DNA of 64,000 nucleotides from Candidatus Nitrosopelagicus sp. (GCA_028345195.1 JAOMCX010000003.1:1-64000), one strand, 5' to 3'; counted from the stretch's first letter, positions 32,077-55,352 are shown. Notes: generated from the letters alone by a model not told the origin. Translations and numbers: made by a program.

Positions 32077-35000
32077 TTGAATTCCAAGATTTTTTCTTTA
32101 TTTTTATTCACGGTTTTAGGGTTTTCAGCAGTTTCGATCCCAAGTAATGGACTGGAAATAAGCCAAAATACTCAATTTTCAATCAATTTGGCAGAAGATT
32201 TGGCAGTTTCTAGCGGATTTGGTCAAAAAATCGGAAATAATCATAATATCGCTCTAAATGAACAATTAGAGATATCGAACCATGAGAAGTATCAGGAATT
32301 AATTTTAGCCACAAAACAGCTCACCGATAGACATGCCATTATGGATAGAGTTGTTCCAAATACAAGATTACGGACTATTCAAGATAGTGACTTAAGTGAT
32401 AAAACAAACGAAGCCACAATAACAGATTTTATCGATAATATCACAGATGCATTCTATGATGGAGGTGGAAAATCACCTTCAATGCCCTCAATCCCCCTGG
32501 CATTTGCGGCAAATATGAATTCAGATTCAATTCAACTGCTTCAAGTAAATGAAATGCATGGGGACAGCCTAGAATCTGTCTATTCAGATACGGGACCACC
32601 ATGGACAATTTTAGATCATCAAAAAAGTTTTTCACAAATTTCCCCAGATAATATTCCAAATTATTATTTTGACTATACAGATAGTTTTTCATCAAAAATC
32701 ACTCCAGCAGAATTAGATTTTACCCAAGCAATACTCATTGTTTCAGCACCAGGAATAATTTACATTATACTATTTTCAGAGGGATTAGTACCAGGAATCA
32801 GACCTCCCAAATTACCTCAATTAGCAGGATTTTATTTTCTATTCATCTTTTTTGTATTTACATCATTTTCAACCCCATTTGCAATTGGAAATGGCATGTG
32901 GAGTACGGCATTTGGAAACATGGATAATTCTACGAATACAAACAGCACTCAATTCGATAATCCAGAATACATTCAACTTTCTAACATGACACAAATTGAC
33001 GATGTAGAAACATCATTTCAAAACAACACGGTAACTGAAACAGACAACGTAGCAGATGGGCCAAAGCATTATTCAATATCAATATCAGAGGGCTTGATCA
33101 TAGGAGATGGCTCACCGACAAACACTCAAACACAAAACGAACCAATTTTTGAAGAGATATTAAAAGATGTCCAAATTTCAGAATCTGTATCATTTTCAGA
33201 TACAATAGCAGAAGAAGAGAAATCACAAAATAATGTGAATGTTTCAGAATCGGTATCATTTTCCGACCGATTAGAGGCAATAATCATCCTTCCATATGGC
33301 GTAATTCGTCTAAATGAAACGATTTCCTTCATTAATGAAACAGATGTAGGTTTTGGTTTGGAATTAATCAATATTTCAGAATCTGTATCGCTTTCAGATT
33401 ATATCACAATTGAATCTCATAGAACCCTGAATGTAATAGTTGATGTTTCGGAATCCATAGAATTTTCATCACAGATAGCAATTGATGGAATTACAGAACT
33501 TCAGATAAATGAATTTTTGATGATGTCTACCATAGTTGGAATTTATCAATCAACAGTTAGAATTGATGAACATTTACAATTATCAGATTATGAAGAAAAT
33601 CAATTTATTGAAATTTCTTTAATCGACATACCAGCAACTAGATTAATACCACAAAATTCAACTTTAGTTCTAAACGGAACCTCATATGTAGAAACTAATC
33701 AAGACATTTCAGAATCTACAAACGAAATCTCAGTTTCTGCATGGATAAAACCTGAATTCGATTCAGGTACACCACAAATGGTTGCATTATCAAAGGATTT
33801 GACTTTTCAAATCAGAATAAATAATCTTGTAGAGCCACACAAGGTTCCAGTTTTTGCAATTTACGATGGAATGAAATGGCATGAAGTTAATGGAAAAACA
33901 CCACTAGAAGAAGGAAAATGGCATCACATTTCAGGAGTACTAGATAAAACTGAAATTACAATTTTTGTTAATGGAATTCAACAGGAAGTAATATCAATTC
34001 CTGAACTTGTTATTGTAGGAAAATTTGCAGTCACTACTACTGAAATGGGCATTTCAATATCTGAAAGTAACATCGTAATTGGAGCTGAACATGATTCGGA
34101 TGAAACAACATCAAAATTCTCAGGGCAAATTTCAGGAGTTTTAATTCACAATAAAGCACTTAATACAGAATTTATCAATGAGGTATTACAAAATACAGCT
34201 CCATTTGCAACTACAGAAATTGTACTAACTGAGACAGTTCAAATTTCAGATGTACAAGGACTTTCAGGAAAAGGTGCGGTAAACATCAACGAGAGTATTT
34301 CATTTCCAGATACAGTAAACAATGGTTCAATCATCTTACCTAGAATTTATTCAGAAAAAATAGATCTATTATCAGTAAATGGCACATATACAAATTCCAC
34401 CATCGCATTAAATGGCACAGGATTTGTTGTTGTGGAAGATACAATATCTTCTGATATCAATACCATGAGTATTTCATCATGGATTAAGCCTGAATTTCAT
34501 GTTGGAAATCCTCAGTATACTATTGCATCAAAAGACAATTCGTTCAATCTATTTATCAGAAATGCAAATGTTGAATCACCATCTCATACAATTGGATTTT
34601 CTGTTTTTGATGGTGTAAGATGGACTGAGATTCTAGGTCACCAAATAATAGATGAAAAGTGGCATCATGCAATGGCATTTGTCAATGGTTCAAAAATTTC
34701 ATTGTACGTGAATGGAAATCTAGAAGATGAGAAAACCTTACAAGATGAATTTTCAATTGGAAACAATGGTCAATATTCAATTCAAGATTCACAAATATCA
34801 GTTTCAGATTCTGAAATAATTATTGGAGCATATGTCAGTAAACTTCGTGAAGAAGCTAAAATTTCGGATAAATTTATAGGAAAAATTGCATCAGTTGATG
34901 TCTATACAGAGGTTCTAAACAAAGAACAGGTTGTATACAAATATGAAACAGAATTACTAGAAATTCACAATGTTGTCTCACTTTATGAGACCATACAGAT

Positions 35001-41000: not shown

Positions 41001-44000
41001 AATGGGAAAAGGTTCAGTACATGTTTTAGAAATGAATTCTGATGGAAGTGTCAAAAATAATTTCAGAATTAATGAAATGGAAACAAACGGACCATCAACA
41101 CTTTGGAAGGATGCAGATGGATCGTTTACTACTAACGATGACGGTTGGGCTTGTTGTGGAGACCAGTTTGGATCATCAATGGCACATATCGGAGATTTGG
41201 ATGGGGATAATCAATCAGACCTAATAGTTGGCGCATGGCAAGATAATACAGTAGGCAATCTCGGAAGTAGTTGGAAGGACAAAGGTGCAATTTGGATTAT
41301 ACAATACTCGGGTTCAAAGCCAGATGATACGACTAGCAATATAAAGAATCTTTCAGAATCAGTATCATTTAGTGACAGTGTTGGAAAGGATGCGGTAACG
41401 AAACTTTCAGAGTCCATTTCATTTAGTGACATTTCTTCCATTGGAATTTCAATTTCAGAGTTGATATCATTTACAGATAGTGCAGTTACTGCCGATTATG
41501 TTGTGGGATTATCAGAATCAGTATCATTGACAGATACTGTTAGTCTAGTAAAGGATGTTACTCAAACAATTTCTGAATCAGTATCATTTACGGATAATAC
41601 TTCAAAGATTGTAGGAATTCCATTATCAGAATCAGTATCATTTAGTGAGAGTATTGAACTTGGAGGTCAAACCACAGTTACATTATCTGAATCTGTATCA
41701 TTTAGTGACAGTGTTGGAAAGGATGCGGTAACGAAACTTTCAGAGTCCATTTCATTTAGTGATAGTGCCTCTAAGACTGTAGGAATTCCATTATCAGAAT
41801 CAGTATCATTTACGGATAGTTTATCAAAATCACAACAATACATTATATCAGTATCAGAATCTATAGCGTTATCAGATAACATTTCAAAGTCTAATGAATC
41901 TACAATTAAACTATCAGAATCTGTTTCAGTTGGTGACAGTGTTGGAAAGGATGCGGTAACGAAACTTTCAGAGTCCATTTCATTTAGTGACAATACTTCC
42001 AAATTTGTAGAAATTGGATTATCAGAATCAGTATCATTTGATGATAGTACTTCCAAATCCAGTGCAACTTCAGTTGCAATATCTGAATTAATTTCAGTGG
42101 CAGATAGTATTTCAAAAGATGGTGAGATTACATTATCAGAATCAGTATCGATAACAGATAGTACTTCAATAGGTAAAGCAACTACTAAAAATCTAACAGA
42201 ATCAATAGTACTGACAGATAATGTTGGAAAGAATGTTACAACTGCGCTAACTGAATCTATAATGCTGACAGATGATCTATCTAGAATTAAATTACAAATC
42301 ATACCATTATCAGAATCAATTGCATTCACAGATAGTTTATCTGAGAATAACGATACGGTAGTTCCATTAGCAGAATCAGTTTTGTTAACAGATAGTACTT
42401 TGATTGGAAAGACAGTCACTCAGTCACTAACAGAAACATTACAACTTGATGATACAATTTCGACAAAGAAGAGTATCAATATTTCACTTTCAGAATCTGT
42501 TGCATTAGGAGACAGTATTTCTGCAGGCATATCAGTCACTCAGTCACTATCAGAATCAATTTCATTTGCAGATAGTACTGCTAATACTCCAGAGATTTCA
42601 CTAACAGAGACAATTCAATTGAACGATAGTAATTTGATAGGTAAGACAGTCACTCAGTCACTATCAGAATCAATTTCATTTACAGATGATAGTTCTAAGA
42701 AAGTTGATACAAGTCTATTAGAGTCAATATCATTTACAGATAATATTTCTACAATCAAATCAAGAATTATCTCACTTTCGGAATCTGTTGTCTTAACAGA
42801 TAGTCATTCAAAGGCAATTGATACTAAACTGATAGAGTCAATATCATTAGACGATGGTGTTTCAAAGGCAGTGGATAAGAAATTATCAGAATCTGTACAG
42901 CTGATTGATTTCAGACCATCTTCACCTACAGACATTGTTGCAGTAGATGCTGAAATTATCACTGTCAACCAAGGTGATGGAAGTGAAGCCAATGTGTATA
43001 CTGTCGAAACAGTTGTTATTGGTGGAAAGACGTATGCAATAGTTACAGGTCAAATGGCAGGTGCGTCATCATTGTATACAATGCAGATGATTGATGTCAG
43101 CTATCCTACAAACATTGTTGAAAAAGACTCAGTATTGGTTAACTCTCCTGTAGAGAGACATTTCTTGGGCTTGGATACATTTACTATTGGTGCAAGTACG
43201 TATGCAATACTTTCAACAAATATTCAAGGTGGTGTACGAGTATACGATATCAGTGATCCTGAAAACATAGTAGCTAAAGACACAATGGTTGATAATGCTT
43301 CACTTATGTTAAAAGGTGCAAGAGATGTTGAAATATTTACTATTGGTGCAAGTACGTATGCGATAGTTGCAGCGTATTTAGACAAGGGTGTACAGATAAT
43401 TGACATTAGTGATCCTGAAAACATAGTAGCTAAAAATGCATTTAGCTTCGATTCAGTGGTGCTTACATACCCAGAAGATGTTGAAATATTTACTATTGGT
43501 GCAAGTACGTATGCGATAGTTGCAGCATATGGAGGAGGAACTGGTGTACAGATAATTGACATTAGTGATCCTGAAAACATAGTAGCTAAAGACACAATGG
43601 TTGATACAGGATCACTTGTGCTTCAACAGGCAAAGGATGTGAATGTATTTACTATTGGTGCAAGTACGTATGCGATACTTACTAGTTCTAGTGATAACGG
43701 TGTTCAGATAATTGACATTAGTGATCCTGAAAACATAGTAGCTAAAGATGCACTGGTGTATGATGGAACCCTTGAGCTGCAATACTCACATGGTATTGAC
43801 ACGTTTACGAGTGGCTCCAGTACATATGCCATTGTTGCAAATTGGGGATACACCTCTGGCGGTGTACAAACACTTGACATCAGTGATCCTGAAAACATAG
43901 TTGCACTAGATGCTGAAACTGATGGAAATAATGGATTTGATATGCTTAGTGGTGCAAATGATGTTGATACGTTTACTATTGGTGCAAGTACGTATGCGAT

Positions 44001-47000
44001 AGTTGCAGCACAGGAGAGTGGCGGGGGTGTACAGATAATTAAATTATTAACAACTGGCGAGGGTCTTGTTGTAGGTAAAACAATCACCCAATCGCTAACA
44101 GAATCGATTTCATTGTCAGATAGCATCTCCAGTACTCCAGAAATTGTACTCTCAGAATCAGTCGTATTAACAGATGGAATAACTATTGGAAAGACAGTCA
44201 CTCAATCATTAACAGAAACATTACAACTACAAACGACTAGTCATTCTCCACCTACAGACATCATAGCAGTTGATGCTGAAAATGATGGCGTAAATGGATT
44301 TGATGCACTTAATGGTGCAACTGACGTTGACACATTTACTATTGGTTCAAGTACGTATGCAATAGTTACAGGTAAGTTTGATTCTGGTGTTCAGATGATT
44401 GATGTTAGTGATCCTACAAACATTGTTGCATTAGATGAGGAATTTGATGCAAGTGCATGGAACTGGAATATGCCAGGAGCACACGGAGTTGAGACATTTA
44501 CTATTGGTTCAAGTACGTATGCGATAGTTACAGGACCTTCGGGCATTTTTGCAACGGATAGTATACAGATGATTGATGTTAGTGATCCTACAAACATTGT
44601 TGCATTAGATAATGAGAGGGAAGGATCTAATGGATTTTTGAGGATTAGAGACGCATATAATGTTGAGACATTTACTATTGGTTCAAGTACGTATGCGATA
44701 GTTCCAGCATACGGTGGTAACGGTGTGCAGACGATTGATGTTAGTGATCCTACAGACATTGTTGCATTGGATAATGAATATAATAACAATAATGGATTTG
44801 ATAGACTTACGAGAGCAACTGATGTTGCTATCTTTACTATTGGTTTAAGTACGTATGCGATAGTTACAGCAGGATCACCACTTGGACATGGTGTTCAGAT
44901 AATTGATGTTAGTGATCCTACAGACATTGTTGCAAAAGATAGTGCAAGTTATGGCACGGATATGCAAACTTACAGTGCACACGGAGTAGAGACATTTACT
45001 ATTGGTTCAAGTACGTATGCGATAGTAACCAGTCAAGGTGGAAGCACTAGTGGCGTGCAGATAATTGATGTTAGTGATCCTACAAACATTGTTGCAAAAG
45101 ATGCTGCAAATGCCTTGGAAAATGAATTTGAGGAACTTCTATGGGCACATGACGTTGACATATTTACTAACGGTGCAAGTACGTATGCGATAGTTACAGC
45201 ACGAGCAGATAACGGTGTTCAGATAATTGATGTTAGTGATCCTACAAACATTGTTGCATTGGATGCTAAAGATGGCAGTGATGATCGTGAAGATGGATTT
45301 ACTGCACTTTTGGGCGCACGTGGAGTAGACACATTCACTATTGGTGCAAGTACGTATGCGATAGTCGCATCTCAACAAAGTGATGGTGTGCAGATAATTA
45401 AATTATCAACTGCAACTGCAACTGGGGATGATGCAATTTTGATAAATAAAAATATCAACACTTCACTTTCTGAATCTATAGCACTCACAGATAGTATTGT
45501 TGCAGGCATATCAGTCACTCAGTCATTAACAGAATCAATTTCATTGTCAGATAGCATCTCCAGTACTTTAGAAATCGTACTAAATGAATCAGTATTATTT
45601 ACAGATGGAATAACTATTGGAAAGACAGTAACTCAGTCATTAACAGAAACATTACAACTACAAACAGCCAGTCAATATAATGACATCACTGCAGTAAGAG
45701 CAGCAATTCTAGGAAATCAATTGATCCATCATACGCATGGAGGTTGGTCCTCACTAGTCCATTTGGATTCAAATACGTATGCGTTAGCTTTTCAAAGTGG
45801 AATTAACAGATCAGGAATTTCTACATTTACCATCTCGCCTGATGGTCAAACAATTACAGAATTAGATTTCATGCTGCATGATGTTAGTAATAGCGGATAC
45901 AACTCCCTAGTAAAAGTCGATTCAGATACGGTTGCGTTAGCGTATAGGTCTTCTAATTCAGGTACCATTAAGACATTTGATATTGACAGTGATGGAGACA
46001 TCACACTTGCAGATAGTTTAGTGCATGCTACAGGTGGTGTATTTTTCAACTCACTAGTTCAAGTCGATTCAGATACGTTTGCGTTAGCGTATGTGGATTG
46101 CGTTTGGTGCGTAGGTGCAATGTACATTGCGACAGTTGATATTGATAGTGATGGAGACATCACAGCAGTAAAGACACAGTCTGAGGGAAATATTTCATAT
46201 CAGTATAATGGAGAAGGATACAACTCACTAGTTCAAGTCGATTCAGATACGTTTGCGTTAGCGTATACTGGCGCTTTTTATGATGGTTACATTTCAACAT
46301 TAACCATCTCGTCTGATGGTCAAACAATTACAAAAGTAGATACTTTAGAGCATGATGAAATAAACGGAAAATGGAACTCACTAGTTCAAGTGGATTCAGA
46401 TACGTATGCGTTAGCGTATCAGGGTAATGGTGGTGGTTACATTTCAACATTTGATATTGATAGTGATGGAGACATCACAGCAGTAAAGACACAGTCTGAG
46501 GGAAATAATCTAGAGTATAGTGGAGACGTCAACGCTGTGGAGTCTTGGGGCAAGTCATTCGTTAAAATGGATTCAGATACGTTTGCGTTAGCGCATACTA
46601 ATCCTTATTCGGGAGGTCACATCACTACATTCAACATCTCGTCTAATGGTCAAGCAATTACAAAATTATCTGCTTTACAGCATGATACAGATTATGCAAC
46701 AAGAGGAACCATGCTCAAAGTGGGTTCAGATACAGTTGCAATAGCGTATTATGGTGGTGGTGGTAATGGCGGTATCATTTCTACAGTTACAATTGGAACA
46801 GGAGCTGATCTAATTTCGATAAATAAGAATATCAACACTTCACTTTCTGAATCCATAACACTCACAGATAGTATTGGTGCAGGCATATCAGTCACTCAGT
46901 CATTAACAGAAACAATTTCATTTGCAGACAGCATTACTAGAGCTCCAATCAAAAATCTTTCAGAATCAATAGTGTTGAGTGCTCTACTTGAGACTAGATA

Positions 47001-50000
47001 TTCACCAAGAATAGCAGAGATATTAACATTTACAGATACAGTTGAAATACAAAGATCACCACTTGCTCCACATCTCTTTGCAGTTCCAGCAGAAGACATT
47101 GTCACTTTAGCATGGAATCCACAGAGCGATTCAAGAGTTGCGCCAATCACCGATTATGTTATACAACACAGCACTGATGAAATAAACTGGACTACAATTA
47201 ATGATGGTGTTAATTCAGTAAGAGCATATTCAGTTGAACCAAGCTATCCGGGATGTCCAAATGCTCCATTGCCATGTATGGAAAATGGAGTAGACAGTTA
47301 CTTCCGTGTACAAGCAATCAATAATCTTGGTACTGGTGAATGGTCTATTGTACAAGATGCAATGCCAGAATCTGATGACAATGAATTTGTAAGAGAAGTA
47401 GTAGTTACTCCTCAACCAGAAAAGTTTACTGTTTCATGGGAACCACATCCAAATTATTGGATGGACATTGTTGATTATTTGATATATCATGCAAATACAC
47501 CAAGTGGTCCATGGACATTATACGATGATGGTTACAATACATTAACAACTGTAACGATTGATGGAATTTCCTCATTTGAGCCTACATTTGTAAAGGTTCA
47601 ACCAGTCATGGAAAGCAATAACGGATGTGCAGCAGATGAAGAGACAGGTCCAGGTGCATCTCAAATAGCATGGACAATGCCATTAAAACAAACACCTAGA
47701 CAGATTCCAGCAGATGATATTTTCACATTCCCAGAAGATGATTCTGTGACTATAGAGTGGGAAAAACCAAGAACAGGAGGAGCAGAAATTGAATATTATC
47801 AAATACAAAAGAAAATGAAAATGCTTGGAGGTATTTGGTCTCCATGGCAAAATCCTCCAGATGATGTACGGGTTACAGCAGATGCTTATGATTGGTATGA
47901 ACATGAAATCATAGGTTTAATGAGTAAATCTGAATATCAGTTCCAAATTCGTGGTGTCAATGAAATTGGAAATGGAGTTTGGTCAAATTCTATCAATGTT
48001 GAAACAAAAGAAGGTGCAGTTCAAAACTTCCATAAAGTTTCAGATGTCTGGTGGGGAGATGACTACATGGATAATGATTATGACGGTCTAACAGATGAAG
48101 AAGATGAACAAAGATACGGTCCTCCAGCATTCCAAGAAAGCTTTGACTATTCTGCAGAAGGCACAAATTTCGGCGATGATCAATTCTTCGGTGAAGCACA
48201 AGACTTTGGTGCAGGTCAAACATTTGGAGACAATACAGAGTTCTATGCAGGACAAACATTTGACGATGATGTAAACTTCTCTGGTAAGAACATCAAGTTT
48301 AATGGTGCAAACTTCCAAAATGCAGAAACATTTGGAGATGGTGCAGCATTTGAAGGTACACAGTCATTTACTGGACAAAACACATTCGGCGATTCAACTG
48401 AATTTAAAGGTGCACAGAACTTTGGTTCGGCCATACAGACATTTGGAGATGGAGTAAAATTCCATGGCGCTACCGACTTTGCTGATGGTCAAACATTTGG
48501 TGCAAACACAGAATTTGCTGATGGACAGAGATTTGATGCAACAGAAGATTATGACTTTGAGATGATAGGATTAGACTTTGGTGCAGGTACTACATTTGGC
48601 AGGGCAGAAGTATTTGGTAGAGGTGCTGAGTTTAATGACGGTGCAGTCGACTTTTACGGTACAAACACATTTGGCTACGGTACAAAATTCGCTGCAGGAC
48701 AAGACTTTGACGCACCTCAGATATTTGGTCAAGGAGTTGATTTCGAAGACAATATGGAATTTGCTGACGGTCAGGTATTTGCACTAGACTTTGACTTTAA
48801 TGAAGAAGGATTGGAATTCGGTAACAATACAGTCTTTTGTGAGGGAGAAGAGATAGGAGCTGGTGCCGAGTTTAAGGGAGCCGTACAATTGGGAGGCGTT
48901 ACTAAATTCAAGGGCGAAGAAGGAAAGCCAATAAAATTCGCTGCAGGACAAGACTTTGATGATTACATTCACGACTTTATTGGCGAGGTAGAATTCATGG
49001 GAGAAATGGATTTCAGAGAAGGTCAGGACTTTGAAGGAGATGTAGAATTCAAAGGATTGTTTGATTACGACGATATGTTTGGCAAAAAACTGGAGTTCAA
49101 AGGAGATGATGTACACTTCTTCATGCCTCCAACTGTTTTGATAGGTGATGAATACTATACCCCTCCACTTGCAATTCCACCGGGAACCGTATTTGGAGAT
49201 GGATTTGACTATGACGATATGTTCTCAGATGCTGATAACGACGGAGTAAACGATGAATACTATGTATTTGAACCAGGGGTAGAATTTGCAACAGAAACTA
49301 GATTCCCACCAATGATAGAATTTGCAGATGGATTCTCCAAAAGTGACATGTTAGGAAAGACATTCACATTTGATGAAGGTGTTTTCTTTGCAGGAGATCC
49401 AATTTTCCCACCAGGACAAAAAATTAAACCAGGAGTAATGTGGGACGAGCCACCAACTTTTGAAGCTGGTGTGAACATAGACCCGGGACTTGCATTACCA
49501 TTAAACACAAAGTTTAGTGAAAATCTAGAATTACCGGCATTTGTAGCTACACCATATGGAATGTTATTAGCACCAATAACATGTGAAGATGAACATTGTA
49601 TACCAGATGAAAGTGCATACTTGGAGCCAGGCGAATTGTTACCACCGGGAGTGGATCCAGCACCGGTTGTAAATTTCATTACAAATACAAACAAAACATT
49701 TGCAAACCCAGGTCTTGGATTTGAAATGGAATTTGATACAGTTGCAAAAGATGGAAAAGTAAATGTTGATCTACAGGATCCTGTTAGCGTTCCTGCAACT
49801 AGTCCTGGTGACACTCCAGGACAACGTGCCATGACATCAGGTACGGGTATTTTCCAAAATGTTGGTTCAATCATTGATGTATCAGTAGATACAGCATCTG
49901 CCACAGGTGCAATGACCGTTACACTTCCATATGATGAATCAACACTTGGCACTGTCTCTGAAGATGAAATAGTCCTACTCCACTATACAGGTGGACAATG

Positions 50001-51486
50001 GGTTACAGTGGATAACATTACAGTTGATAAAGAAAATAACAAAGTATCAGGAACCGTTACCTCACTTTCACCATTTACAGTTGGAAAACAAACAGGTAGT
50101 GTTTCAACAGGAAGTTCTAGTACTACAGGAACTACAGGAGCTGGTTCAGGAGGCGGCGGTGGAGGCGGAGGCGGCGGTGGAGCAGTAATAAGTAGTGAAG
50201 GTGGTGAAAAGGGAGGATATCCAACACTGAAAATAGTTGAATTGACATACGACACTGATTCGGATATTGTAAGAGTGACAGTATCTCCAGAATATGAAAA
50301 AACGGATATAATTATTAAAACAGTAACTGGATTTGAACTTGCAACAAAGATTGGAACACATCCAATACTCAACCAGGCAGTATATGAAGCACCATTACTG
50401 GCTAATAGCGGACCAATTCAGGTATCAGCTACTGCATTTGTAAAATCATTAGTCATAGAATCAACTCCACTTGTCGCTACAATTTCGGCAGGTACAACAA
50501 CCATTAAACCAGAAGAAGACGTAATCAGACAACCAGTAATAACTTCCCCATCAAAAGATTTCCAGAAACCTGATGATTTCATCACAGATGCACAGTGTCC
50601 ATTTGGAACAAATCTTATTGGTGGAAAATGTGTCCAACAAACTTTCCAAGAACAACCACTTCCAATACAATTTGGAGTAATCTTACTCTTAGTGATGCTA
50701 GCGATTGGGTTAACACTGACAATTGAAATAAGAAGACGTAAGGCAAGAAAGATTGTTTCATCACAACTAGTATTTGAAACAAAAGAAGACGTAATCAGAC
50801 AACCAGTAATTCCAAAATCAGAACCACCAATAATCATTTCACAAGAATTAGAACCAGAAAAGGCAGTTCTAATTCAATTATTAAAAACATTACAAACACA
50901 AGAAGAAATACAGAAAAAAATACATTTGCTAGAATCTCAATTATTAGAACACGTAAATGAAGAGGTCAAGGTTAGAGAGAAATTAACTACACTGATAAAA
51001 TTAGTAGAGATCAGATTAAATCTAGTAGAACCATTATTGGCACAACAGCTTAAAGCACTACCACGACCAAAACGCACTTACAAGAAAAAGAGAAAAGTAT
51101 TGACAGTAGAACATAAAGCAAAGATTGCAGCCGCAAGAAGAGGTAAGAAACAGACTGAGATAACTAAACAGAAAATCGTAATAGCTAAGACTGGCAGAAA
51201 AATGTCTGACGAACATAAAGCAAAGATTGCAGCCGCAAGAAGAGGTAAGAAACAGACTGAGATAACTAAACAGAAAATCGTAATAGCTAAGACTGGCAGA
51301 AAAATGTCTGACGAACATAAAGCAAAGATTGCAGCCGCAAGAAGAGGTAAGAAACAGACTGAGATAACTAAACAGAAAATCTCAGATTCAAGAATTGGTA
51401 AAAGAATGTCAGAATCTACTAAACGAAAGATTTCCAAATCAAGGAAAACTGTAAAAAATAAGGAGGTACAGTTAGATGAAAAATAA
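32077..51486 (+). CDS. Giant multidomain surface protein with NUMOD3-like basic tail
   Basis: About 6,469 aa with no internal stop. The start is taken as TTG 32077 (NSKIFSLFLFTVLGFSAVSI, a good signal peptide) rather than TTG 32047, which overlaps the previous gene. Order: hydrophobic pair (32730-32886), two LamG-like domains, coiled coil, MG2/Ig-like domain, three FG-GAP propellers, 28 SES repeats, three seven-bladed propellers, three Fn3 domains, a Phe-hexapeptide solenoid, a beta-sandwich (LPYDE...LSPFTVG), poly-Gly, a last Ig-like domain, a membrane helix, a coiled coil and seven 17-residue NUMOD3-like units. Adhesion, matrix or cell-cell contact is the probable role. Ca sites are likely in DxDGDG loops. 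Several stretches are repeated almost exactly at DNA level. Confidence 0.93.
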   Translation: MNSKIFSLFLFTVLGFSAVSIPSNGLEISQNTQFSINLAEDLAVSSGFGQKIGNNHNIALNEQLEISNHEKYQELILATKQLTDRHAIMDRVVPNTRLRTIQDSDLSDKTNEATITDFIDNITDAFYDGGGKSPSMPSIPLAFAANMNSDSIQLLQVNEMHGDSLESVYSDTGPPWTILDHQKSFSQISPDNIPNYYFDYTDSFSSKITPAELDFTQAILIVSAPGIIYIILFSEGLVPGIRPPKLPQLAGFYFLFIFFVFTSFSTPFAIGNGMWSTAFGNMDNSTNTNSTQFDNPEYIQLSNMTQIDDVETSFQNNTVTETDNVADGPKHYSISISEGLIIGDGSPTNTQTQNEPIFEEILKDVQISESVSFSDTIAEEEKSQNNVNVSESVSFSDRLEAIIILPYGVIRLNETISFINETDVGFGLELINISESVSLSDYITIESHRTLNVIVDVSESIEFSSQIAIDGITELQINEFLMMSTIVGIYQSTVRIDEHLQLSDYEENQFIEISLIDIPATRLIPQNSTLVLNGTSYVETNQDISESTNEISVSAWIKPEFDSGTPQMVALSKDLTFQIRINNLVEPHKVPVFAIYDGMKWHEVNGKTPLEEGKWHHISGVLDKTEITIFVNGIQQEVISIPELVIVGKFAVTTTEMGISISESNIVIGAEHDSDETTSKFSGQISGVLIHNKALNTEFINEVLQNTAPFATTEIVLTETVQISDVQGLSGKGAVNINESISFPDTVNNGSIILPRIYSEKIDLLSVNGTYTNSTIALNGTGFVVVEDTISSDINTMSISSWIKPEFHVGNPQYTIASKDNSFNLFIRNANVESPSHTIGFSVFDGVRWTEILGHQIIDEKWHHAMAFVNGSKISLYVNGNLEDEKTLQDEFSIGNNGQYSIQDSQISVSDSEIIIGAYVSKLREEAKISDKFIGKIASVDVYTEVLNKEQVVYKYETELLEIHNVVSLYETIQIHDKTNLLDELTTTNVKLYRINLYDEIFLEDVILVAGLDNNVHLNEFLILQENISFDNHVTMKPLTPLVNPEIKMVKSGFLITETPKFELEYYSENDAAKIDHLQIVNATNIANQIQEDLAPTPAELLTTGNLNEITTAIQIIETRKAILDLQNQLDQMPEDVKPEDVKPLLDRLNEITESIEETAEKLEEIRLEEKAEEIENSVKKIKEAADIKQNLNQTGTWKSAHEIISSKIIAPDGKIFAEEVFFEKMREGKFGIEISNDIINSDKAKPGIYIIQNTIIIDGNEFTINEEFAWGLVSLNTKKSTYHPGETAEFVIVVLDSVGAPVCDANLVMSINGTTLSSGAGITPNEECGIYDAAYDTGSKGTYHVDISAIADGIQTGFETTFDVANHVEFDIIRTAQSKIDPVNNPNEFDVILDITSHTDADQIQIVEMVPSAFEIITDGQITEKNNITTITWDKTLVGNSTQISYTYSVPFVFPELYPLGPVQIDYDGKSYNEARPWFVANDPLTISPNIVNLDEVVSIQDDISVVTSTNQVVLNEEIQFVDKTTTGYESDGVILSTQRITIDSDGARQGFGMGLARLGDLDGNGVDDFAVGAATGDRWYSSWSWPTNKNGAVYIMFMNSDGSVKGTATIDKDTTNGPDIGSNAHSYGRSVQNIGDIDGDGINDIAVGEERGDSGKGAVYIHFLNADGTVKSTATIKDGVTNAPGLAAGDHYGADIANMGDLDGDGINDIAVGADEDSSNGTDKGVVYIHYLNSDGSLKEDTVKIGHGTTNGPDIHDYGGYGGSIENIGDLDGDGVNDLAVGETNQSNWASPGYVHIHFMNADQSIKSTNEIEGKSSADMPGDRTTGYYTYFGSSIANIGDQNGDGINDIAVGASLSGYQLDTDGVSGVDYEMGKGAVYILNMDTDGTVKDSFRINEDIPNGPALWGDGITYGNSGSNRGQFGASMDGAFITDDYQLELIVGAPTDATAGSNEGTIWIIYLNIGNDYPVVELEESISLTDTKSVIPDKALSETVSLTDTAYGGLGQAHIFMKESIAFTDSSIVSARDVTQWISETLPVSDTFLRNFHLYYPSLSESISLTDSITGVLETGPVIYGTVKTTKDSDGARQGFGMGMASLGDLDGNGAMDLAIGAADGDKWYGSSTGTYWSSSKNGAVYITYMNTDGSIKSTVTIDKDTTNGPGSSAASSYGKSVANIGDIDGDGIVDIAVGADKQDSAKGEVYIHFLNANGSVKSTATIKDGVTNAPDLAAGDHYGADIANMGDLDGDGINDIAVGADQDSSNGTDKGAVYIHYLNSDGSLKEDTVKIRHGTTNGPSIENKGNYGNSVENIGDVDGDGVNDLAVSETDHSSTYGSRGTLHIHLMNADESIKSTNEINPNSASHMPNHRTPSYYVMFGTAITNIGDQNGDGISDIAVGASMDGYYHGLDQQSSGNVYYGKMSRGAVYILYLDDDATIKDSYRIDEKYIPHFGPNLIENYSWSHGGQFGSSIVAADINGNEKLDLIVGAPSEREAGNYEGAIWIINNHQGATYLKTYTQAISETLTLTDIAGKKTVIEISESLSITDTILSARQVSISESISFTDTAVLHDFTIGNVVTISFTDTITIRKAVTQFIDETVSLTDTADGERVAVELSETLALTDSITITREFGLYSSTEINHNTSNAPDLTNRQGFGASVASLGDMDGDGVVDIAVGTQGINGGRSSPWEPFQANVNGAVYIMYLNSDGSVKSTVTIDKDTTNGPGSGAGHGYGQAIASLGDLDGDGVVDIAVGDLKEDNQKGRILIHYLNSNGSVKSTVEIKHGTANGPSLSNNDEYGVSIANMGDLDGDGVVDIAVGAFLDDDAGTDTGAVYIHYLNSNGSVKSTVKINHDTTNGATNDGTNFGNQHYGRAVANIGDLDGDGVTDMAVSEPRLSSYRYTGPVNVHFMNSNGSIKSTVEIDGYGFSSTSRTASAYSQFGTSIVGIGDRNNDGVPDMAIGAAQDGWGHRWPNNTHVNEMGKGSVHVLEMNSDGSVKNNFRINEMETNGPSTLWKDADGSFTTNDDGWACCGDQFGSSMAHIGDLDGDNQSDLIVGAWQDNTVGNLGSSWKDKGAIWIIQYSGSKPDDTTSNIKNLSESVSFSDSVGKDAVTKLSESISFSDISSIGISISELISFTDSAVTADYVVGLSESVSLTDTVSLVKDVTQTISESVSFTDNTSKIVGIPLSESVSFSESIELGGQTTVTLSESVSFSDSVGKDAVTKLSESISFSDSASKTVGIPLSESVSFTDSLSKSQQYIISVSESIALSDNISKSNESTIKLSESVSVGDSVGKDAVTKLSESISFSDNTSKFVEIGLSESVSFDDSTSKSSATSVAISELISVADSISKDGEITLSESVSITDSTSIGKATTKNLTESIVLTDNVGKNVTTALTESIMLTDDLSRIKLQIIPLSESIAFTDSLSENNDTVVPLAESVLLTDSTLIGKTVTQSLTETLQLDDTISTKKSINISLSESVALGDSISAGISVTQSLSESISFADSTANTPEISLTETIQLNDSNLIGKTVTQSLSESISFTDDSSKKVDTSLLESISFTDNISTIKSRIISLSESVVLTDSHSKAIDTKLIESISLDDGVSKAVDKKLSESVQLIDFRPSSPTDIVAVDAEIITVNQGDGSEANVYTVETVVIGGKTYAIVTGQMAGASSLYTMQMIDVSYPTNIVEKDSVLVNSPVERHFLGLDTFTIGASTYAILSTNIQGGVRVYDISDPENIVAKDTMVDNASLMLKGARDVEIFTIGASTYAIVAAYLDKGVQIIDISDPENIVAKNAFSFDSVVLTYPEDVEIFTIGASTYAIVAAYGGGTGVQIIDISDPENIVAKDTMVDTGSLVLQQAKDVNVFTIGASTYAILTSSSDNGVQIIDISDPENIVAKDALVYDGTLELQYSHGIDTFTSGSSTYAIVANWGYTSGGVQTLDISDPENIVALDAETDGNNGFDMLSGANDVDTFTIGASTYAIVAAQESGGGVQIIKLLTTGEGLVVGKTITQSLTESISLSDSISSTPEIVLSESVVLTDGITIGKTVTQSLTETLQLQTTSHSPPTDIIAVDAENDGVNGFDALNGATDVDTFTIGSSTYAIVTGKFDSGVQMIDVSDPTNIVALDEEFDASAWNWNMPGAHGVETFTIGSSTYAIVTGPSGIFATDSIQMIDVSDPTNIVALDNEREGSNGFLRIRDAYNVETFTIGSSTYAIVPAYGGNGVQTIDVSDPTDIVALDNEYNNNNGFDRLTRATDVAIFTIGLSTYAIVTAGSPLGHGVQIIDVSDPTDIVAKDSASYGTDMQTYSAHGVETFTIGSSTYAIVTSQGGSTSGVQIIDVSDPTNIVAKDAANALENEFEELLWAHDVDIFTNGASTYAIVTARADNGVQIIDVSDPTNIVALDAKDGSDDREDGFTALLGARGVDTFTIGASTYAIVASQQSDGVQIIKLSTATATGDDAILINKNINTSLSESIALTDSIVAGISVTQSLTESISLSDSISSTLEIVLNESVLFTDGITIGKTVTQSLTETLQLQTASQYNDITAVRAAILGNQLIHHTHGGWSSLVHLDSNTYALAFQSGINRSGISTFTISPDGQTITELDFMLHDVSNSGYNSLVKVDSDTVALAYRSSNSGTIKTFDIDSDGDITLADSLVHATGGVFFNSLVQVDSDTFALAYVDCVWCVGAMYIATVDIDSDGDITAVKTQSEGNISYQYNGEGYNSLVQVDSDTFALAYTGAFYDGYISTLTISSDGQTITKVDTLEHDEINGKWNSLVQVDSDTYALAYQGNGGGYISTFDIDSDGDITAVKTQSEGNNLEYSGDVNAVESWGKSFVKMDSDTFALAHTNPYSGGHITTFNISSNGQAITKLSALQHDTDYATRGTMLKVGSDTVAIAYYGGGGNGGIISTVTIGTGADLISINKNINTSLSESITLTDSIGAGISVTQSLTETISFADSITRAPIKNLSESIVLSALLETRYSPRIAEILTFTDTVEIQRSPLAPHLFAVPAEDIVTLAWNPQSDSRVAPITDYVIQHSTDEINWTTINDGVNSVRAYSVEPSYPGCPNAPLPCMENGVDSYFRVQAINNLGTGEWSIVQDAMPESDDNEFVREVVVTPQPEKFTVSWEPHPNYWMDIVDYLIYHANTPSGPWTLYDDGYNTLTTVTIDGISSFEPTFVKVQPVMESNNGCAADEETGPGASQIAWTMPLKQTPRQIPADDIFTFPEDDSVTIEWEKPRTGGAEIEYYQIQKKMKMLGGIWSPWQNPPDDVRVTADAYDWYEHEIIGLMSKSEYQFQIRGVNEIGNGVWSNSINVETKEGAVQNFHKVSDVWWGDDYMDNDYDGLTDEEDEQRYGPPAFQESFDYSAEGTNFGDDQFFGEAQDFGAGQTFGDNTEFYAGQTFDDDVNFSGKNIKFNGANFQNAETFGDGAAFEGTQSFTGQNTFGDSTEFKGAQNFGSAIQTFGDGVKFHGATDFADGQTFGANTEFADGQRFDATEDYDFEMIGLDFGAGTTFGRAEVFGRGAEFNDGAVDFYGTNTFGYGTKFAAGQDFDAPQIFGQGVDFEDNMEFADGQVFALDFDFNEEGLEFGNNTVFCEGEEIGAGAEFKGAVQLGGVTKFKGEEGKPIKFAAGQDFDDYIHDFIGEVEFMGEMDFREGQDFEGDVEFKGLFDYDDMFGKKLEFKGDDVHFFMPPTVLIGDEYYTPPLAIPPGTVFGDGFDYDDMFSDADNDGVNDEYYVFEPGVEFATETRFPPMIEFADGFSKSDMLGKTFTFDEGVFFAGDPIFPPGQKIKPGVMWDEPPTFEAGVNIDPGLALPLNTKFSENLELPAFVATPYGMLLAPITCEDEHCIPDESAYLEPGELLPPGVDPAPVVNFITNTNKTFANPGLGFEMEFDTVAKDGKVNVDLQDPVSVPATSPGDTPGQRAMTSGTGIFQNVGSIIDVSVDTASATGAMTVTLPYDESTLGTVSEDEIVLLHYTGGQWVTVDNITVDKENNKVSGTVTSLSPFTVGKQTGSVSTGSSSTTGTTGAGSGGGGGGGGGGGAVISSEGGEKGGYPTLKIVELTYDTDSDIVRVTVSPEYEKTDIIIKTVTGFELATKIGTHPILNQAVYEAPLLANSGPIQVSATAFVKSLVIESTPLVATISAGTTTIKPEEDVIRQPVITSPSKDFQKPDDFITDAQCPFGTNLIGGKCVQQTFQEQPLPIQFGVILLLVMLAIGLTLTIEIRRRKARKIVSSQLVFETKEDVIRQPVIPKSEPPIIISQELEPEKAVLIQLLKTLQTQEEIQKKIHLLESQLLEHVNEEVKVREKLTTLIKLVEIRLNLVEPLLAQQLKALPRPKRTYKKKRKVLTVEHKAKIAAARRGKKQTEITKQKIVIAKTGRKMSDEHKAKIAAARRGKKQTEITKQKIVIAKTGRKMSDEHKAKIAAARRGKKQTEITKQKISDSRIGKRMSESTKRKISKSRKTVKNKEVQLDEK
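32730..32886 (+). other. N-terminal hydrophobic pair in the giant protein
   Basis: Two hydrophobic stretches, AILIVSAPGIIYIILF (about 32730-32778) and LAGFYFLFIFFVFTSF (32821-32868), are separated by a short Pro/Arg-containing loop. They look like a membrane hairpin about 220-270 residues after the signal peptide. If both span the membrane, the protein is anchored at both ends. Confidence 0.6.
33640..34200 (+). other. LamG-like (concanavalin-like) domain 1
   Basis: The signature order is LVLNGTSYVE, ISVSAWIKPEF, ALSKDLTFQIRI, EGKWHHISGVLDK, ITIFVNGIQQ and GQISGVLIHNKAL. This is the lectin-like jelly roll used for carbohydrate or protein binding outside cells. Confidence 0.75.
34335..34960 (+). 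other. LamG-like domain 2
   Basis: It repeats the pattern of domain 1: IALNGTGFVVVED, MSISSWIKPEFHVG, DEKWHHAMAFVNG, ISLYVNGNLED and GKIASVDVYTEVLN. The two copies are clearly related at protein level but diverged at DNA level. Confidence 0.75.
35340..35640 (+). other. Coiled-coil segment
   Basis: About 100 residues of charged heptads (IQIIETRKAILDLQNQLDQM, then SIEETAEKLEEIRLEEKAEE) predicted as a long helix. It includes a short direct repeat PEDVKPEDVKP. It may set oligomeric state or spacing. Confidence 0.7.
35880..36180 (+). other. MG2/Ig-like domain
   Basis: The pattern STYHPGETAEFVIVVLDSVG, followed by DANLVMSING and CGIYDAAYDTGSKGTYHVDI, is that of macroglobulin-like or bacterial Ig domains. 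Confidence 0.6.
36670..37975 (+). other. FG-GAP beta-propeller 1
   Basis: Six FG-GAP motifs are visible, such as GFGMGLARLGDLDGNGVDDF and YGADIANMGDLDGDGINDIA. Each has a DxDGxG calcium loop followed by AVGA/E. The arrangement matches the integrin-alpha-like propeller. Confidence 0.85.
37089..37337 (+). repeat. Near-identical DNA segment, copy 1
   Basis: This 249-bp segment matches 38712-38960 (offset 1,623 bp, 541 codons) with six differences that I can count, about 97.6 percent identity. Flanking propeller sequence is much more diverged. Confidence 0.8.
38295..39595 (+). other. FG-GAP beta-propeller 2
   Basis: Same layout as propeller 1, starting DGARQGFGMGMASLGDLDGN. A 249-bp part (38712-38960) is almost identical in DNA to 37089-37337 of propeller 1. 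Confidence 0.85.
38712..38960 (+). repeat. Near-identical DNA segment, copy 2
   Basis: Partner of 37089-37337. The sharp edges and high identity suggest a recent gene-conversion tract or local duplication between FG-GAP propellers 1 and 2. Confidence 0.8.
39960..41320 (+). other. FG-GAP beta-propeller 3
   Basis: It starts QGFGASVASLGDMDGDGVVD and has the same blade order. It contains its own internally repeated phrase NSNGSVKSTV in successive blades, which differs from the phrases used in propellers 1 and 2. Confidence 0.85.
41341..42910 (+). repeat. 28 tandem SESVSFTDS-type repeats
   Basis: I count 28 units of 18-22 residues with core L-S-E-S-V/I-x-F/L-x-D-S, for example LSESVSFSDSVGKDAVT, which occurs several times. 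The same unit also appears singly or in small groups at 33172-33590, 37990-38290, 39610-39950, 44070-44240, 45460-45670 and 46840-47050. It forms a spacer between folded domains. It is coding, not a CRISPR array. Confidence 0.9.
42917..44050 (+). repeat. LVIVD-type seven-bladed propeller A
   Basis: Seven blades with core FTIGASTYAIVAA...GVQIIDISDPENIVAKD. Blade DNA is highly uniform, e.g. tttactattggtgcaagtacg recurs in most blades. The ISDPENIV form is specific to this propeller. Confidence 0.8.
44250..45410 (+). repeat. LVIVD-type seven-bladed propeller B
   Basis: Seven blades with core FTIGSSTYAIVT...GVQIIDVSDPTNIVALD. It is closely related to propeller A but carries its own consistent VSDPTNIV wording, which indicates homogenisation within the domain. 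Confidence 0.8.
45680..46800 (+). repeat. Seven-bladed propeller C (SLVQVDSDTFALAY type)
   Basis: Seven blades with core SLVQVDSDTFALAY...ISTFDIDSDGDITAVKT. The blade motif differs from both LVIVD and FG-GAP. I do not recognise a named family; the seven-fold repeat supports a propeller. Confidence 0.7.
47070..48010 (+). other. Three fibronectin type III domains
   Basis: Each shows the Fn3 pattern: VTLAWNPQSDSRVAPITDYV then YFRVQAINNLGTGEWS; FTVSWEPHPNYWMDIVDYLI; VTIEWEKPRTGGAEIEYYQI then YQFQIRGVNEIGNGVWSN. The middle copy is the least typical. Confidence 0.8.
48140..49480 (+). repeat. Phenylalanine hexapeptide solenoid
   Basis: A run of hexads F-x-x-G/A-x-x, such as FGAGQT FGDNTE FYAGQT and FADGQT FGANTE FADGQR. 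Period is about 18 bp in DNA over the first part, loosening to F..G/P forms after 49080. It should fold as a beta-helix with stacked Phe. Classical left-handed helices use Leu/Ile/Val at this position, so this is atypical. Confidence 0.75.
49680..50090 (+). other. Beta-sandwich domain before the poly-Gly linker
   Basis: It reads MTVTLPYDESTLGTVSEDEI, then GGQWVTVDNITVDKENNKVS and GTVTSLSPFTVG, a pattern seen near the C-termini of archaeal and bacterial surface proteins just before their anchors. Confidence 0.55.
50149..50184 (+). repeat. Poly-glycine linker
   Basis: Eleven to twelve consecutive glycine codons (ggc/gga/ggt mixed) follow a Ser/Thr/Gly stretch. They provide a flexible hinge before the membrane-proximal domain. 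Confidence 0.9.
50513..50540 (+). repeat. 28-bp direct repeat, copy 1, before the membrane helix
   Basis: An identical 28-bp sequence (beginning aagaagacgtaatcagacaa) occurs at 50513-50540 and 50783-50810. Both code for EDVIRQPVI. The 270-bp unit between repeat starts (90 codons) contains the C-terminal membrane helix. Confidence 0.9.
50665..50727 (+). other. C-terminal membrane helix of the giant protein
   Basis: About 21 hydrophobic residues (FGVILLLVMLAIGLTLTI) are followed at once by EIRRRKARK. By the positive-inside rule the remaining ~250 residues are cytoplasmic. Confidence 0.85.
50783..50810 (+). repeat. 28-bp direct repeat, copy 2, after the membrane helix
   Basis: Exact partner of 50513-50540. 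It lies 56 bp after the end of the membrane segment, on the predicted cytoplasmic side, whereas copy 1 is on the outer side. Confidence 0.9.
51103..51459 (+). repeat. Seven NUMOD3-like 17-residue repeats (102-bp DNA repeat)
   Basis: Units alternate between EHKAKIAAARRGKKQ and TEITKQKIVIAKTGRKM, with the last two diverged (KISDSRIGKRM, SESTKRKISKSRK). The core S/T-x-E-x-K-x-K-I-x-x-A-x-x-G-K/R matches NUMOD3, a DNA-binding module of GIY-YIG and HNH homing endonucleases. The DNA period is 102 bp, starting at 51109, 51211 and 51313, with the first two copies essentially identical. Confidence 0.8.
51462..51467 (+). promoter_or_regulatory. Strong Shine-Dalgarno inside the 3' end of the giant gene
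   Basis: The perfect ggaggt lies 8 bases before ATG 51476. It is read as KEV by the giant frame and as a ribosome binding site for the next gene, which implies translational coupling. Confidence 0.75.
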
Positions 51487-52105
51487 ACTTTCAATGAATT
51501 CTAGAAAGTGTTTACTAGCAATACTTTGCTGTATGATAATTATGCCAGGTATGATATATGGTCAAGAAGAACAGATACCGCTTCAAGTTGAACAAGAACA
51601 GTACATACTAGAAAGAACAGGCGACATACTGGTAAAAATTTTAGGAAGTATTGAATTGGATGGACGTGAAACATCTAGAACCCAAGTAGTATTAACTCAT
51701 AATTCACCTAATGGAGAATCAATGACACATCTTGTCAGAACGAACAATTACGGATACTACGAATTTTATTTTATCCACAATTGGGATTCCGCACGAGGAG
51801 TTTATGATATCAACATAAGTAATAATTCAAAATCAATTGATAATGTAACATACGAATTGGTACAAGACCCATCTTACAAATTAGATAAACAAGTAAAGGA
51901 TGAATATTGGATCAAAGAAGTAAATAACAGAGAAATAATCAACACGGTGATTAATGCCTGGGAATATTATGAAGGAAATAAAAAAGAAGTAAATTATTGG
52001 ATGAAAAATATCTTCCACTGGTATTACACTAATTCCATAACTGAAGAAGAAGTAATCAGTTCAGTTCAATATTTAATAGAAAATAATATATTAAAATTTG
52101 ATTAA
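51476..52105 (+). CDS. 209-aa secreted protein, partner candidate of the giant protein
   Basis: Signal peptide CLLAILCCMIIMPGMIYG. About 100 residues of beta-rich, carboxypeptidase-regulatory-like sequence follow (ILVKILGSIELDGRETSRTQ, NYGYYEFYFIHNW). A C-terminal helix-rich module, YWMKNIFHWYYTNSITEEEV then QYLIENNIL, matches the W...W...I...eF..giqyLIe.gI module common at the ends of thaumarchaeal secreted proteins. It overlaps the giant gene by 11 bp behind a strong Shine-Dalgarno, so it should be made together with it. Function unknown. Confidence 0.75.
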   Translation: MKNKLSMNSRKCLLAILCCMIIMPGMIYGQEEQIPLQVEQEQYILERTGDILVKILGSIELDGRETSRTQVVLTHNSPNGESMTHLVRTNNYGYYEFYFIHNWDSARGVYDINISNNSKSIDNVTYELVQDPSYKLDKQVKDEYWIKEVNNREIINTVINAWEYYEGNKKEVNYWMKNIFHWYYTNSITEEEVISSVQYLIENNILKFD

Positions 52106-52782
52106 TTTTTGTTTTGTTTGACTATTCTAGCAATTATTTCACGCTCATGTTGACGTTCTTCTTCTAATAGATTCATTTGAGATTTTATTTCCAGTTCCAA
52201 CATTGAACGATCAGATGTAATCTGTTCCAAACGATGCCGATATTCCAAAATATGCGTTTGTATATTTTGTGTAGTTTTATTTTTATTTACAATGTTTAAT
52301 CTTTCTAAGCGTAATCCTTCTAATTCCTTTTCTTGAGACATACGTAATTTTTGAGCATCTTGTATTTTTTCTACAAGTTCTTTTTCTTGAGGAACTAATT
52401 GAGATATTTCATTATTGGTGGAATAAAGCTCGTTCATTTTTTCTTCTGTTTCATTTTTAATTTCTTTGATTGAATGAGTTATTTCTTTTTGTAATTTTTG
52501 TAGATTAGATCTTAGTTCTTGAATATGTTGTTTTCTATCTTCAAATTTATCATCTAGTTCTTTTTTCTTATTATGTAAATCAGTCAGTAAATCTTTGGAA
52601 TTAAGTTCTTTTAATGTAGCACGTTTTTGTTTTAAATTATTTTCAAGTGAACTAATTATTTCATAATAGTTATTGGGCAAGATTTCTTTTTCAGTAGGAA
52701 TGGATTTTGATATTTCAAGATATTTTTTTTTCATCTGATCATATTTTTTTTGTTTTTCAATATCTAGATGTGAATCTACCAT
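52102..52782 (-). CDS. Coiled-coil protein
   Basis: 226 aa, almost entirely charged heptads (KKKELDDKFEDRKQHIQELR, EKELVEKIQDAQKLRMSQEK), with no cysteine, signal or membrane segment. It is probably a cytoplasmic elongated dimer, perhaps structural. It converges on the secreted-protein gene with a 4-bp overlap. The C-terminus HEREIIARIVKQNKN resembles that of the 77-aa protein at 767-1000. Confidence 0.75.
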   Translation of the reverse strand: MVDSHLDIEKQKKYDQMKKKYLEISKSIPTEKEILPNNYYEIISSLENNLKQKRATLKELNSKDLLTDLHNKKKELDDKFEDRKQHIQELRSNLQKLQKEITHSIKEIKNETEEKMNELYSTNNEISQLVPQEKELVEKIQDAQKLRMSQEKELEGLRLERLNIVNKNKTTQNIQTHILEYRHRLEQITSDRSMLELEIKSQMNLLEEERQHEREIIARIVKQNKN

Positions 52783-53245: not shown

Positions 53246-53413
53246 TCAAGATTCATTTTCATCATGACCAATAACATGCTTTTCACAATAATAGAGATCA
53301 TTCATGTTACAATAATATGAACAATCATTGTCACATAATGCACATTTTGGTTTTTTATCATCTGCAGATAATTTGTAATGATAGTTTTTACTTTTCAATT
53401 TTTTCAAGTTCAT
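53246..53413 (-). CDS. 55-aa Cys/His-rich micro-protein
   Basis: ATG 53413 to TGA 53246-53248. The basic N-terminus is followed by KCALCDNDCSYYCNMNDLYY and CEKHVIGH, giving five cysteines and two histidines in a zinc-finger-like layout. The start overlaps the end of the upstream gene (53388-53735) by 26 bp on the same strand, which suggests coupling. Family unknown. Confidence 0.55.
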   Translation of the reverse strand: MNLKKLKSKNYHYKLSADDKKPKCALCDNDCSYYCNMNDLYYCEKHVIGHDENES

Positions 53414-53735
53414 TTTTTAATGAAATTAAACTACGAAGTATTAATCCAGATAAACCTAAATTTTGTACAAGCATGGTTGCAGAATCATTTAATGCATCAT
53501 CTCCTCTATAACCCTCATCGTAAAGTATTTCGATTTGACCTTGATCTGTATCAACTAATGCAGTGATAATTGAATATTCCCCCAAATTTTGATCTGTTTT
53601 AATTCTATAATGTAATAACTCAATTTTTTTAATCGCCACGCCATCTTGTGTTATTTCTCCATCAGAAAAAATCAAATTTCTATCATCAGGTTCACGTTCA
53701 ATTCTTTTTGAATCAGGAATATCAACAAATTTCAT
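53388..53735 (-). CDS. Hypothetical 115-aa protein
   Basis: Beta-rich first two thirds (NLIFSDGEITQDGVAIKKIE, YSIITALVDTDQGQIEILYD) and a C-terminal helix (LSGLILRSLISLKNELEKIE). No known catalytic motif. It is upstream of the Cys-rich micro-protein on the same strand, likely in one transcript. Function not recognised. Confidence 0.6.
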   Translation of the reverse strand: MKFVDIPDSKRIEREPDDRNLIFSDGEITQDGVAIKKIELLHYRIKTDQNLGEYSIITALVDTDQGQIEILYDEGYRGDDALNDSATMLVQNLGLSGLILRSLISLKNELEKIEK

Positions 53736-54245: not shown

Positions 54246-55352
54246 GTGAATCACCACCATTTTGAAGGAAAAGACATACCTCACATCAAACTTGACTCTA
54301 AAACAACAGTAAAAGAGTTAGTTGAAATTTATGCAAATTCTGGATTTAATGCAAGACAATTAGGAGAGGCGGCAAAATTATATCAAAAAATGATTCACGA
54401 GAATGCAACTATTTGTTTAACAGTTGCAGGTGCAATGACGCCCGTAGGATTTGGCGGAATTATTAAAACACTTTTAGAAAAAGGATTTGTAGATTGGATT
54501 GTTACGACAGGTGCAAATGTATATCATGAAGATCATTTTGCGTGGGGATTACCAGTAAAACAAGGGCATTTTGAAGTTGACGATAACATATTGTATGAAA
54601 AAGAAATTGTGAGAATTAGAGATGTGTATGTTAAATTTTATGAGACATTAGAATTAGAAGATAATATAATTCAGAATATGTTTAAGGATAAATTTTCAGA
54701 AAAATCATTTACAACTGCAGAATTTTGTAATGTATTAGGAAGAATCAGTAAAGAAAAATCAAAATTTCCTGAAAAAAGTTTCCTTACAACTGCGTATGAA
54801 TTAGACGTTCCAGTATACGTATCAACACTCAAAGATTCATCTCTTGCAATGAATTTGGCAGTACATAGATTAAAAAATAAACAATTCAATTTAGACTTCG
54901 TTAGAGAGATTATTGAACAAGCAGCAATTGTTTACAATTCAAAAAAATCAGGCATTTTAGAACTTGGAGGAGGAGTTCCAAAAAATACAGCACAACAAAC
55001 AGGTCCATTGTTAGATCAAATTTTAAGAAAAGATCATGGAGGACAAAATTATATTATTCAGATTACAGATGCGCGACCAGACACAGGAGGATTATCAGGT
55101 GCAACATTACAAGAAGGAAAGAGTTGGGGAAAAGTAAAAGATTCACATGAAGATTTGATTACAGTGTACACAGACTCTACAATCGCATTTCCCATGTTAG
55201 CGCTTTATGCATTATCAAATGAGGAATCTAGAGAACAAAAAAGAATTTATAAAAAATTAGGTAATTATTATGATACATTACAAGAATCAGCTAATAATGT
55301 TCCAGACAAATTTGCCGATATACTGAAAAAATCCGATATAAACCTGGATTAA
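54246..55352 (+). CDS. dys: Deoxyhypusine synthase
   Basis: 368 aa from GTG 54246, since the nearby ATG runs into a stop. It transfers the aminobutyl group of spermidine to a lysine of aIF5A. Seen: the NAD-binding LTVAGAMTPVGFGGI, WIVTTGANVYHEDHFAWG, LGGGVPKNTAQQTGP, ITDARPDTGGLSGATLQEGK, and the catalytic Lys in KSWGKVK. Polyamine supply may come from the agmatinase-like enzyme at 26994. Confidence 0.93.
   Translation: MNHHHFEGKDIPHIKLDSKTTVKELVEIYANSGFNARQLGEAAKLYQKMIHENATICLTVAGAMTPVGFGGIIKTLLEKGFVDWIVTTGANVYHEDHFAWGLPVKQGHFEVDDNILYEKEIVRIRDVYVKFYETLELEDNIIQNMFKDKFSEKSFTTAEFCNVLGRISKEKSKFPEKSFLTTAYELDVPVYVSTLKDSSLAMNLAVHRLKNKQFNLDFVREIIEQAAIVYNSKKSGILELGGGVPKNTAQQTGPLLDQILRKDHGGQNYIIQITDARPDTGGLSGATLQEGKSWGKVKDSHEDLITVYTDSTIAFPMLALYALSNEESREQKRIYKKLGNYYDTLQESANNVPDKFADILKKSDINLD

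Follow-up and report, generated by a model that had tools for sequence, protein, structure and literature searches.

NUMODs have been described as the segments by which phage-type homing endonucleases bind DNA (PMC3943268, PMC1564403), and I-TevI, the intron endonuclease of phage T4, also acts as a transcriptional autorepressor via its DNA-binding part (PMC3943268). Here, we analyze a 64,000-nucleotide stretch of DNA from Candidatus Nitrosopelagicus sp. (GCA_028345195.1 JAOMCX010000003.1:1-64000; hereafter the window), in which the gene for a giant predicted surface protein ends in a tandem array of units of one such module, NUMOD3. I-TevI (1i3j/1t2t) contains a NUMOD3-type segment, NHKHSDITKSKISEKMKGKKPSN, that aligns with a unit of this tail, but the two proteins are built differently: I-TevI is soluble and has its segment joined to a GIY-YIG nuclease, whereas the giant protein has no nuclease, and its units follow one another in tandem after a membrane helix.

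In ToxR/CadC-type regulators, a single protein reaches from an outside domain through one transmembrane (TM) helix to a DNA-binding part in the cytoplasm, as the giant protein would, although their DNA-binding part is an N-terminal winged helix-turn-helix and their ectodomains are small. On its outer side, the giant protein resembles the giant adhesion-type surface proteins of Nitrososphaerota, with which it shares an ectodomain of FG-GAP, LamG, fn3, and repeat modules and a membrane-near stretch that recurs in other genera. In those found via the ectodomain, a TM helix with a NUMOD3 tail was not seen, and the papers found on NUMOD3, as far as their titles and abstracts show, describe no giant surface protein with such a tail.

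A membrane helix, a predicted coiled coil, and an array of NUMOD3 units

The giant protein is encoded by a 6,479-aa open reading frame (ORF) spanning positions 32047-51486 on the plus strand, which is the strand of all genes and protein features below unless stated otherwise. Its final 273 residues (50665-51483) start with a TM helix, IQFGVILLLVMLAIGLTLTI, followed by RRRKARK, a stop-transfer arrangement with the positive side inside (50665-50751; hydropathy 2.48; helical in the AlphaFold2 model; present in four species). Next comes a predicted cytoplasmic coiled-coil helix (50848-51057; helix 62-131 of the model; aligned in four species), for which AlphaFold2, run on a two-sequence alignment, gave a predicted local distance difference test (pLDDT) score of ~91-96 over most of its length; searched alone against the PDB, it found no match. 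Behind a basic linker, RTYKKKRKV (51073-51099), invariant in four of four species, lie seven 17-residue NUMOD3-type units (51100-51456), identified by Pfam, single-copy scoring, the I-TevI match, and unit parsing. Their order is LTVEHKAKIAAARRGKK, QTEITKQKIVIAKTGRK, MSDEHKAKIAAARRGKK, QTEITKQKIVIAKTGRK, MSDEHKAKIAAARRGKK, QTEITKQKISDSRIGKR, and MSESTKRKISKSRKTVK, and the same model folds the array into four helical stretches with moderate-to-low confidence (block means ~50-79). Tandem Repeats Finder detected a 102-bp repeat inside the array (51109-51381; 2.7 copies, 100% matches), and these exact copies are the product of recent expansion or homogenization. The tail is strongly basic, with 48 K+R vs. 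13 D+E in 137 aa, a net charge of ~+35. A preliminary description of this DNA, made from the sequence alone, had listed a TM helix with RRRKARK behind it, then a coiled coil and seven units of 17 residues; all are present (50665-51456), the coiled coil as an AlphaFold2 prediction.

In Pfam, the tail matches NUMOD3 (PF07460) in seven stretches with 70.9 bits (E 8.3e-20), the curated gathering cut-off being 20.4 bits. Neither composition shuffles (n = 4) nor tandem arrays of shuffled units (n = 4) gave any NUMOD3 match. The shuffled arrays did match unrelated families spuriously, down to 3e-9, and the E-value of the whole tail is therefore inflated. Since repetition can have this effect, single copies were scored separately. 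A nonredundant 39-aa two-unit piece reached 33.5 bits (E 4e-8) against PF07460, while the tails of three orthologs from the same genus scored between 30.1 and 73.8 bits, the lowest value belonging to the three-unit tail of G027. The tail also matches a homing-endonuclease profile in PHROGs (phrog_314, 3.1e-11).

When a NUMOD3 profile was built from the tail units and independent NUMOD3 proteins, its sole PDB match was the I-TevI DNA-binding domain, at the segment named above (E 9.4e-4); this domain was reportedly co-crystallized with its substrate by Van Roey in 2001 (cited in PMC3943268). That profile is dominated by the other NUMOD3 proteins, and the test of the tail itself is an ungapped direct comparison with I-TevI. 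Within the whole giant protein, the I-TevI stretch best matches the tail unit GKKQTEITKQKISDSRIGKRMSE, with a score of 47 vs. 24 at the best site elsewhere, and none of 5,000 tail shuffles reached that score. On these comparisons, the tail belongs to the NUMOD3 sequence family and is not an artifact of composition or repetition. The preliminary description had made its idea of a nucleic-acid tether depend on NUMOD3 similarity beyond composition, and this similarity held in the shuffles, the single-copy scores, and the I-TevI comparison. From the homology to NUMOD3 and I-TevI, we infer that the tail binds nucleic acid.

Other assignments were rejected. Matches to TALE repeats (phmmer against the PDB) contained no single significant stretch and stem from a common 34-residue period, and a 56B-like ribbon-helix-helix match fell below its Pfam cut-off; in the tail, NUMOD3 is the one family whose match exceeds a curated cut-off. 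Pfam, run over the entire giant protein, gave no nuclease domain, in agreement with the preliminary description, and the protein does not qualify as a NUMOD-bearing homing endonuclease.

In relatives, where these were read, the same repeated module occurs as stand-alone NUMOD3 or NUMOD3-Vsr/DUF559 ORFs (355 and 190 aa in G006, 370 aa in G137), some of whose unit pairs are near those of the tail. The 355-aa ORF (L073:1013-2077) has a match to a Vsr/DUF559-type nuclease at its C terminus, which the giant protein lacks; the 370-aa ORF (L122) resembles it by eye, and the 190-aa ORF runs off its contig. None of the three reads as a giant membrane protein, and ORFs of this kind, stand-alone or nuclease-joined, are a plausible source of the tail module. 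A tblastn search of phages and plasmids with the tail gave no match, under a low-complexity filter that may mask the tail, and a scan of the viral_contigs set found no relative.

Conservation, selection, and rarity

The same combination of TM helix, coiled coil, and NUMOD3 tail is encoded by three other genomes of the genus (G022, G027, and G029). Only these three can be aligned to all of the first 800 residues (62-88% identity), and two further genomes match portions of that region; both ends of the giant protein are thus retained in the same three congeners. The number of units varies among the four species (7, 6, 5, and 3), the window having seven.

Ratios of nonsynonymous to synonymous divergence (dN/dS; Nei-Gojobori) were 0.06-0.24 for the tail, compared with 0.28-0.42 for the TM helix together with the coiled coil and 0.16-0.31 for the neighboring ectodomain. 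These figures are rough owing to repeat homogenization and to synonymous sites that approach saturation whenever G027 is compared. Because the ratios for the tail are this low, we conclude from the coding sequences that it is clearly kept by purifying selection.

NUMOD3 is rare in these archaea. Of 398 genomes drawn from across the phylum, Pfam found it in 2, this one included, and it found it in 6 of 61 genomes when this genome was taken with 60 nearer relatives; both counts are lower bounds, as the Pfam count missed G027, which was recovered by protein query. One of the six, a genome of the same order (G054), has 51 NUMOD3 matches (L003, L008, L013, L019, L025, and others), many in short or broken ORFs, and one of them adjoins an ORF that by eye resembles CRISPR Cas1. 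Ectodomain matches in other genera end before the TM helix. The preliminary description knew of no such adhesin, and within the phylum genomes searched we found none beyond the three congeners, other phyla being barely covered. Among those genomes, then, a known module is placed in an architecture found nowhere else beyond the congeners.

Predicted topology of the giant protein

Although the ORF opens at TTG 32047, the likely start is TTG 32077, just past the gene for a 219-aa protein, because the N-terminal homology to G022, G027, and G029 begins there; the gene is accordingly placed at 32077-51486. By prediction, the protein has the makings of a type I-like surface protein, with an N-terminal signal sequence, a large ectodomain, and a C-terminal TM helix with a basic side, plus an extra N-terminal hairpin. 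The signal-sequence-like hydrophobic N terminus, LNSKIFSLFLFTVLGFSAV (32077-32160), was recognized by hydropathy and is kept in the three orthologs, as is the predicted transmembrane hairpin at about residues 225-274 with its basic loop RPPKLPQ (32719-32868; also from hydropathy). The predicted ectodomain (32870-50664) contains, according to Pfam, LamG-type lectin, FG-GAP and EPTP beta-propeller repeats, and fn3, as well as SES(V/I)SxxDS-type repeats. A membrane-adjacent Cys pair at its end is kept across the four species, and the C-terminal TM helix with its basic stretch likewise recurs in the orthologs.

With all hydrophobic segments counted together, the ectodomain is predicted to lie outside and the tail inside. 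The tether proposed in the preliminary description could not have stood with an extracellular tail, and prediction puts the tail in the cytoplasm.

The accessory island and its conserved genes

An accessory island of 22.9 kb (29899-52804; no strand assigned) contains the giant gene; where the window has the island, the empty site in G014 has a 19-bp stretch. The island's junctions, determined by blastn, are sharp (window 29898 = L106 9424 and window 52805 = L106 9444 in G014) and are the same in G006 and G025. We traced the locus across the genus via a conserved anchor gene (54246-55349). The site is empty in ten congeners: from a 616-aa gene (28045-29895) to a small gene (53388-53735), the distance is 603-659 bp in these ten genomes vs. 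23.5 kb in the window. The gap at the site is ~1.25 kb in G011 (L119) and G026 (L120). In G022, G027, and G029 the site is occupied on its 3' side; their contigs break within the giant gene, and its 5' ends are on other contigs. No tRNA gene was found within 26000-56000, and no clear target-site duplication was seen at the junctions.

Around the giant gene, a module of neighbors is conserved in all four species. First comes a gene for an AbrB/MazE-like 52-aa DNA-binding protein (30970-31128; Pfam MazE_antitoxin, 3.4e-6), found upstream of the giant gene at 87-92% identity in G022, G027, and G029; with this gene conserved there, expression of the island is probably regulated. Directly upstream of the giant gene is the gene for a 219-aa predicted secreted protein (31412-32071; phrog_5417, unknown function, 6.5e-12; 67-84% identity in the same three genomes). 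A more distant N terminus of the giant family, at a contig end (L138, G002:C12), has 47-48% identity over ~168 aa and also has a 219-aa gene upstream. On the other side, a gene for a small secreted protein of 209 aa (51476-52105; identity 70% in G022, 55% in G029, and 53% in G027) shares positions 51476-51486 with the 3' end of the giant gene, and like overlaps in the orthologous loci suggest translational coupling. The last member, a convergent gene for a coiled-coil protein (52102-52782, minus strand), shows 60-64% identity by tblastn in the other three loci.

Discussion

We favor, as somewhat more probable than its negation, the reading that an envelope protein is tied to DNA through its tail, which would work in the cytoplasm as a multivalent DNA-binding array. 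Outside the cell would stand a very long ectodomain, thousands of residues built from adhesion-type modules, and a single helix would cross the membrane. In the cytoplasm, the predicted coiled coil may join several chains and, past the basic linker, a flexible array of three to seven NUMOD3-type helices per chain would grip DNA multivalently, with probably modest sequence preference, like the related segment in the DNA-binding part of I-TevI. Such a cluster of chains might keep DNA of the chromosome (its own island, perhaps) close to a patch of the surface; alternatively, the outcome might be that engagement at the surface is coupled to DNA.

Several points weigh against this reading. NUMOD3 units are short, and convergence could approach such a sequence. 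Confidence in the modeled array is only moderate to low, and predicted helices are no proof of DNA binding. Among ectodomain homologs of other genera, no TM helix with a NUMOD3 tail was seen where the locus could be read (such loci are often cut, and those on the minus strand were translated out of frame). Finally, the island is absent from most congeners, and its function is therefore dispensable.

Of the other explanations, the one that fares best, with perhaps a minority chance of being right, is that the partner of the basic helical array is not DNA. The array would instead bind RNA or ribosomes, acidic lipid head groups, polyphosphate, or an acidic protein and would serve inside the cell as an anchor or spacer for the surface protein, its resemblance to NUMOD3 reflecting retained ancestry or convergence. 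The net charge of ~+35 in 137 aa is consistent with this, the drift from three to seven units among species fits nonspecific multivalent binding, and the acidic termini SDEEYSDE in G029 and G027 hint at other partners. However, the conserved positions match NUMOD3 (S/T-x-E-x-T/H-K-x-K-I ... G-K/R-K) in ways that go beyond charge, and the match disappears when the sequence is shuffled at constant composition.

An unlikely explanation, though one with some appeal given the autorepression reported for I-TevI (PMC3943268) and the AbrB-like regulator gene two genes upstream in four species, is that the protein acts as a ToxR/CadC-type regulator held in the membrane. Binding on the outer side would alter the tail or cut it loose by proteolysis; its NUMOD3 units would then control transcription, possibly of the protein's own island. 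Yet no helix-turn-helix domain scored above the Pfam cut-off, which sets the protein apart from ToxR/CadC; a sensor of 6,000 aa would be unusual, and repeats this exact are more suggestive of valency than of a lone operator.

It is very improbable that the array is functionless, a NUMOD3 piece of a mobile nuclease fused in frame at the 3' end and expanded by slippage. The exact 102-bp tandem copies and the NUMOD3-nuclease ORFs in relatives (G006, G137) are what such neutral growth would leave, but four species whose synonymous divergence is at least ~0.5 have all kept the tail, its dN/dS lies far below 1, and the RTYKKKRKV linker is invariant. Least probable of all is an extracellular tail, perhaps gripping environmental DNA: the topology is a prediction to which the N-terminal hairpin adds uncertainty, but in four species the last TM helix has basic residues behind it and the Cys pair on its opposite side, and all hydrophobic segments together still place the tail inside.

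NUMOD3 is known as the part with which selfish phage-type endonucleases hold DNA; here, it is retained without a nuclease and under purifying selection at the predicted inner end of a giant surface protein. The placement of the archaeal chromosome relative to the envelope is largely an open question, and a tail this small can be put directly to the test in vitro. If it binds DNA, this would be a case of a nucleoid-tied surface protein in archaea. Tentatively, and with less assurance than we attach to the DNA-binding array itself, one protein may form a physical link between cell exterior and chromosome in an archaeon, as an accessory module of open-ocean ammonia oxidizers.

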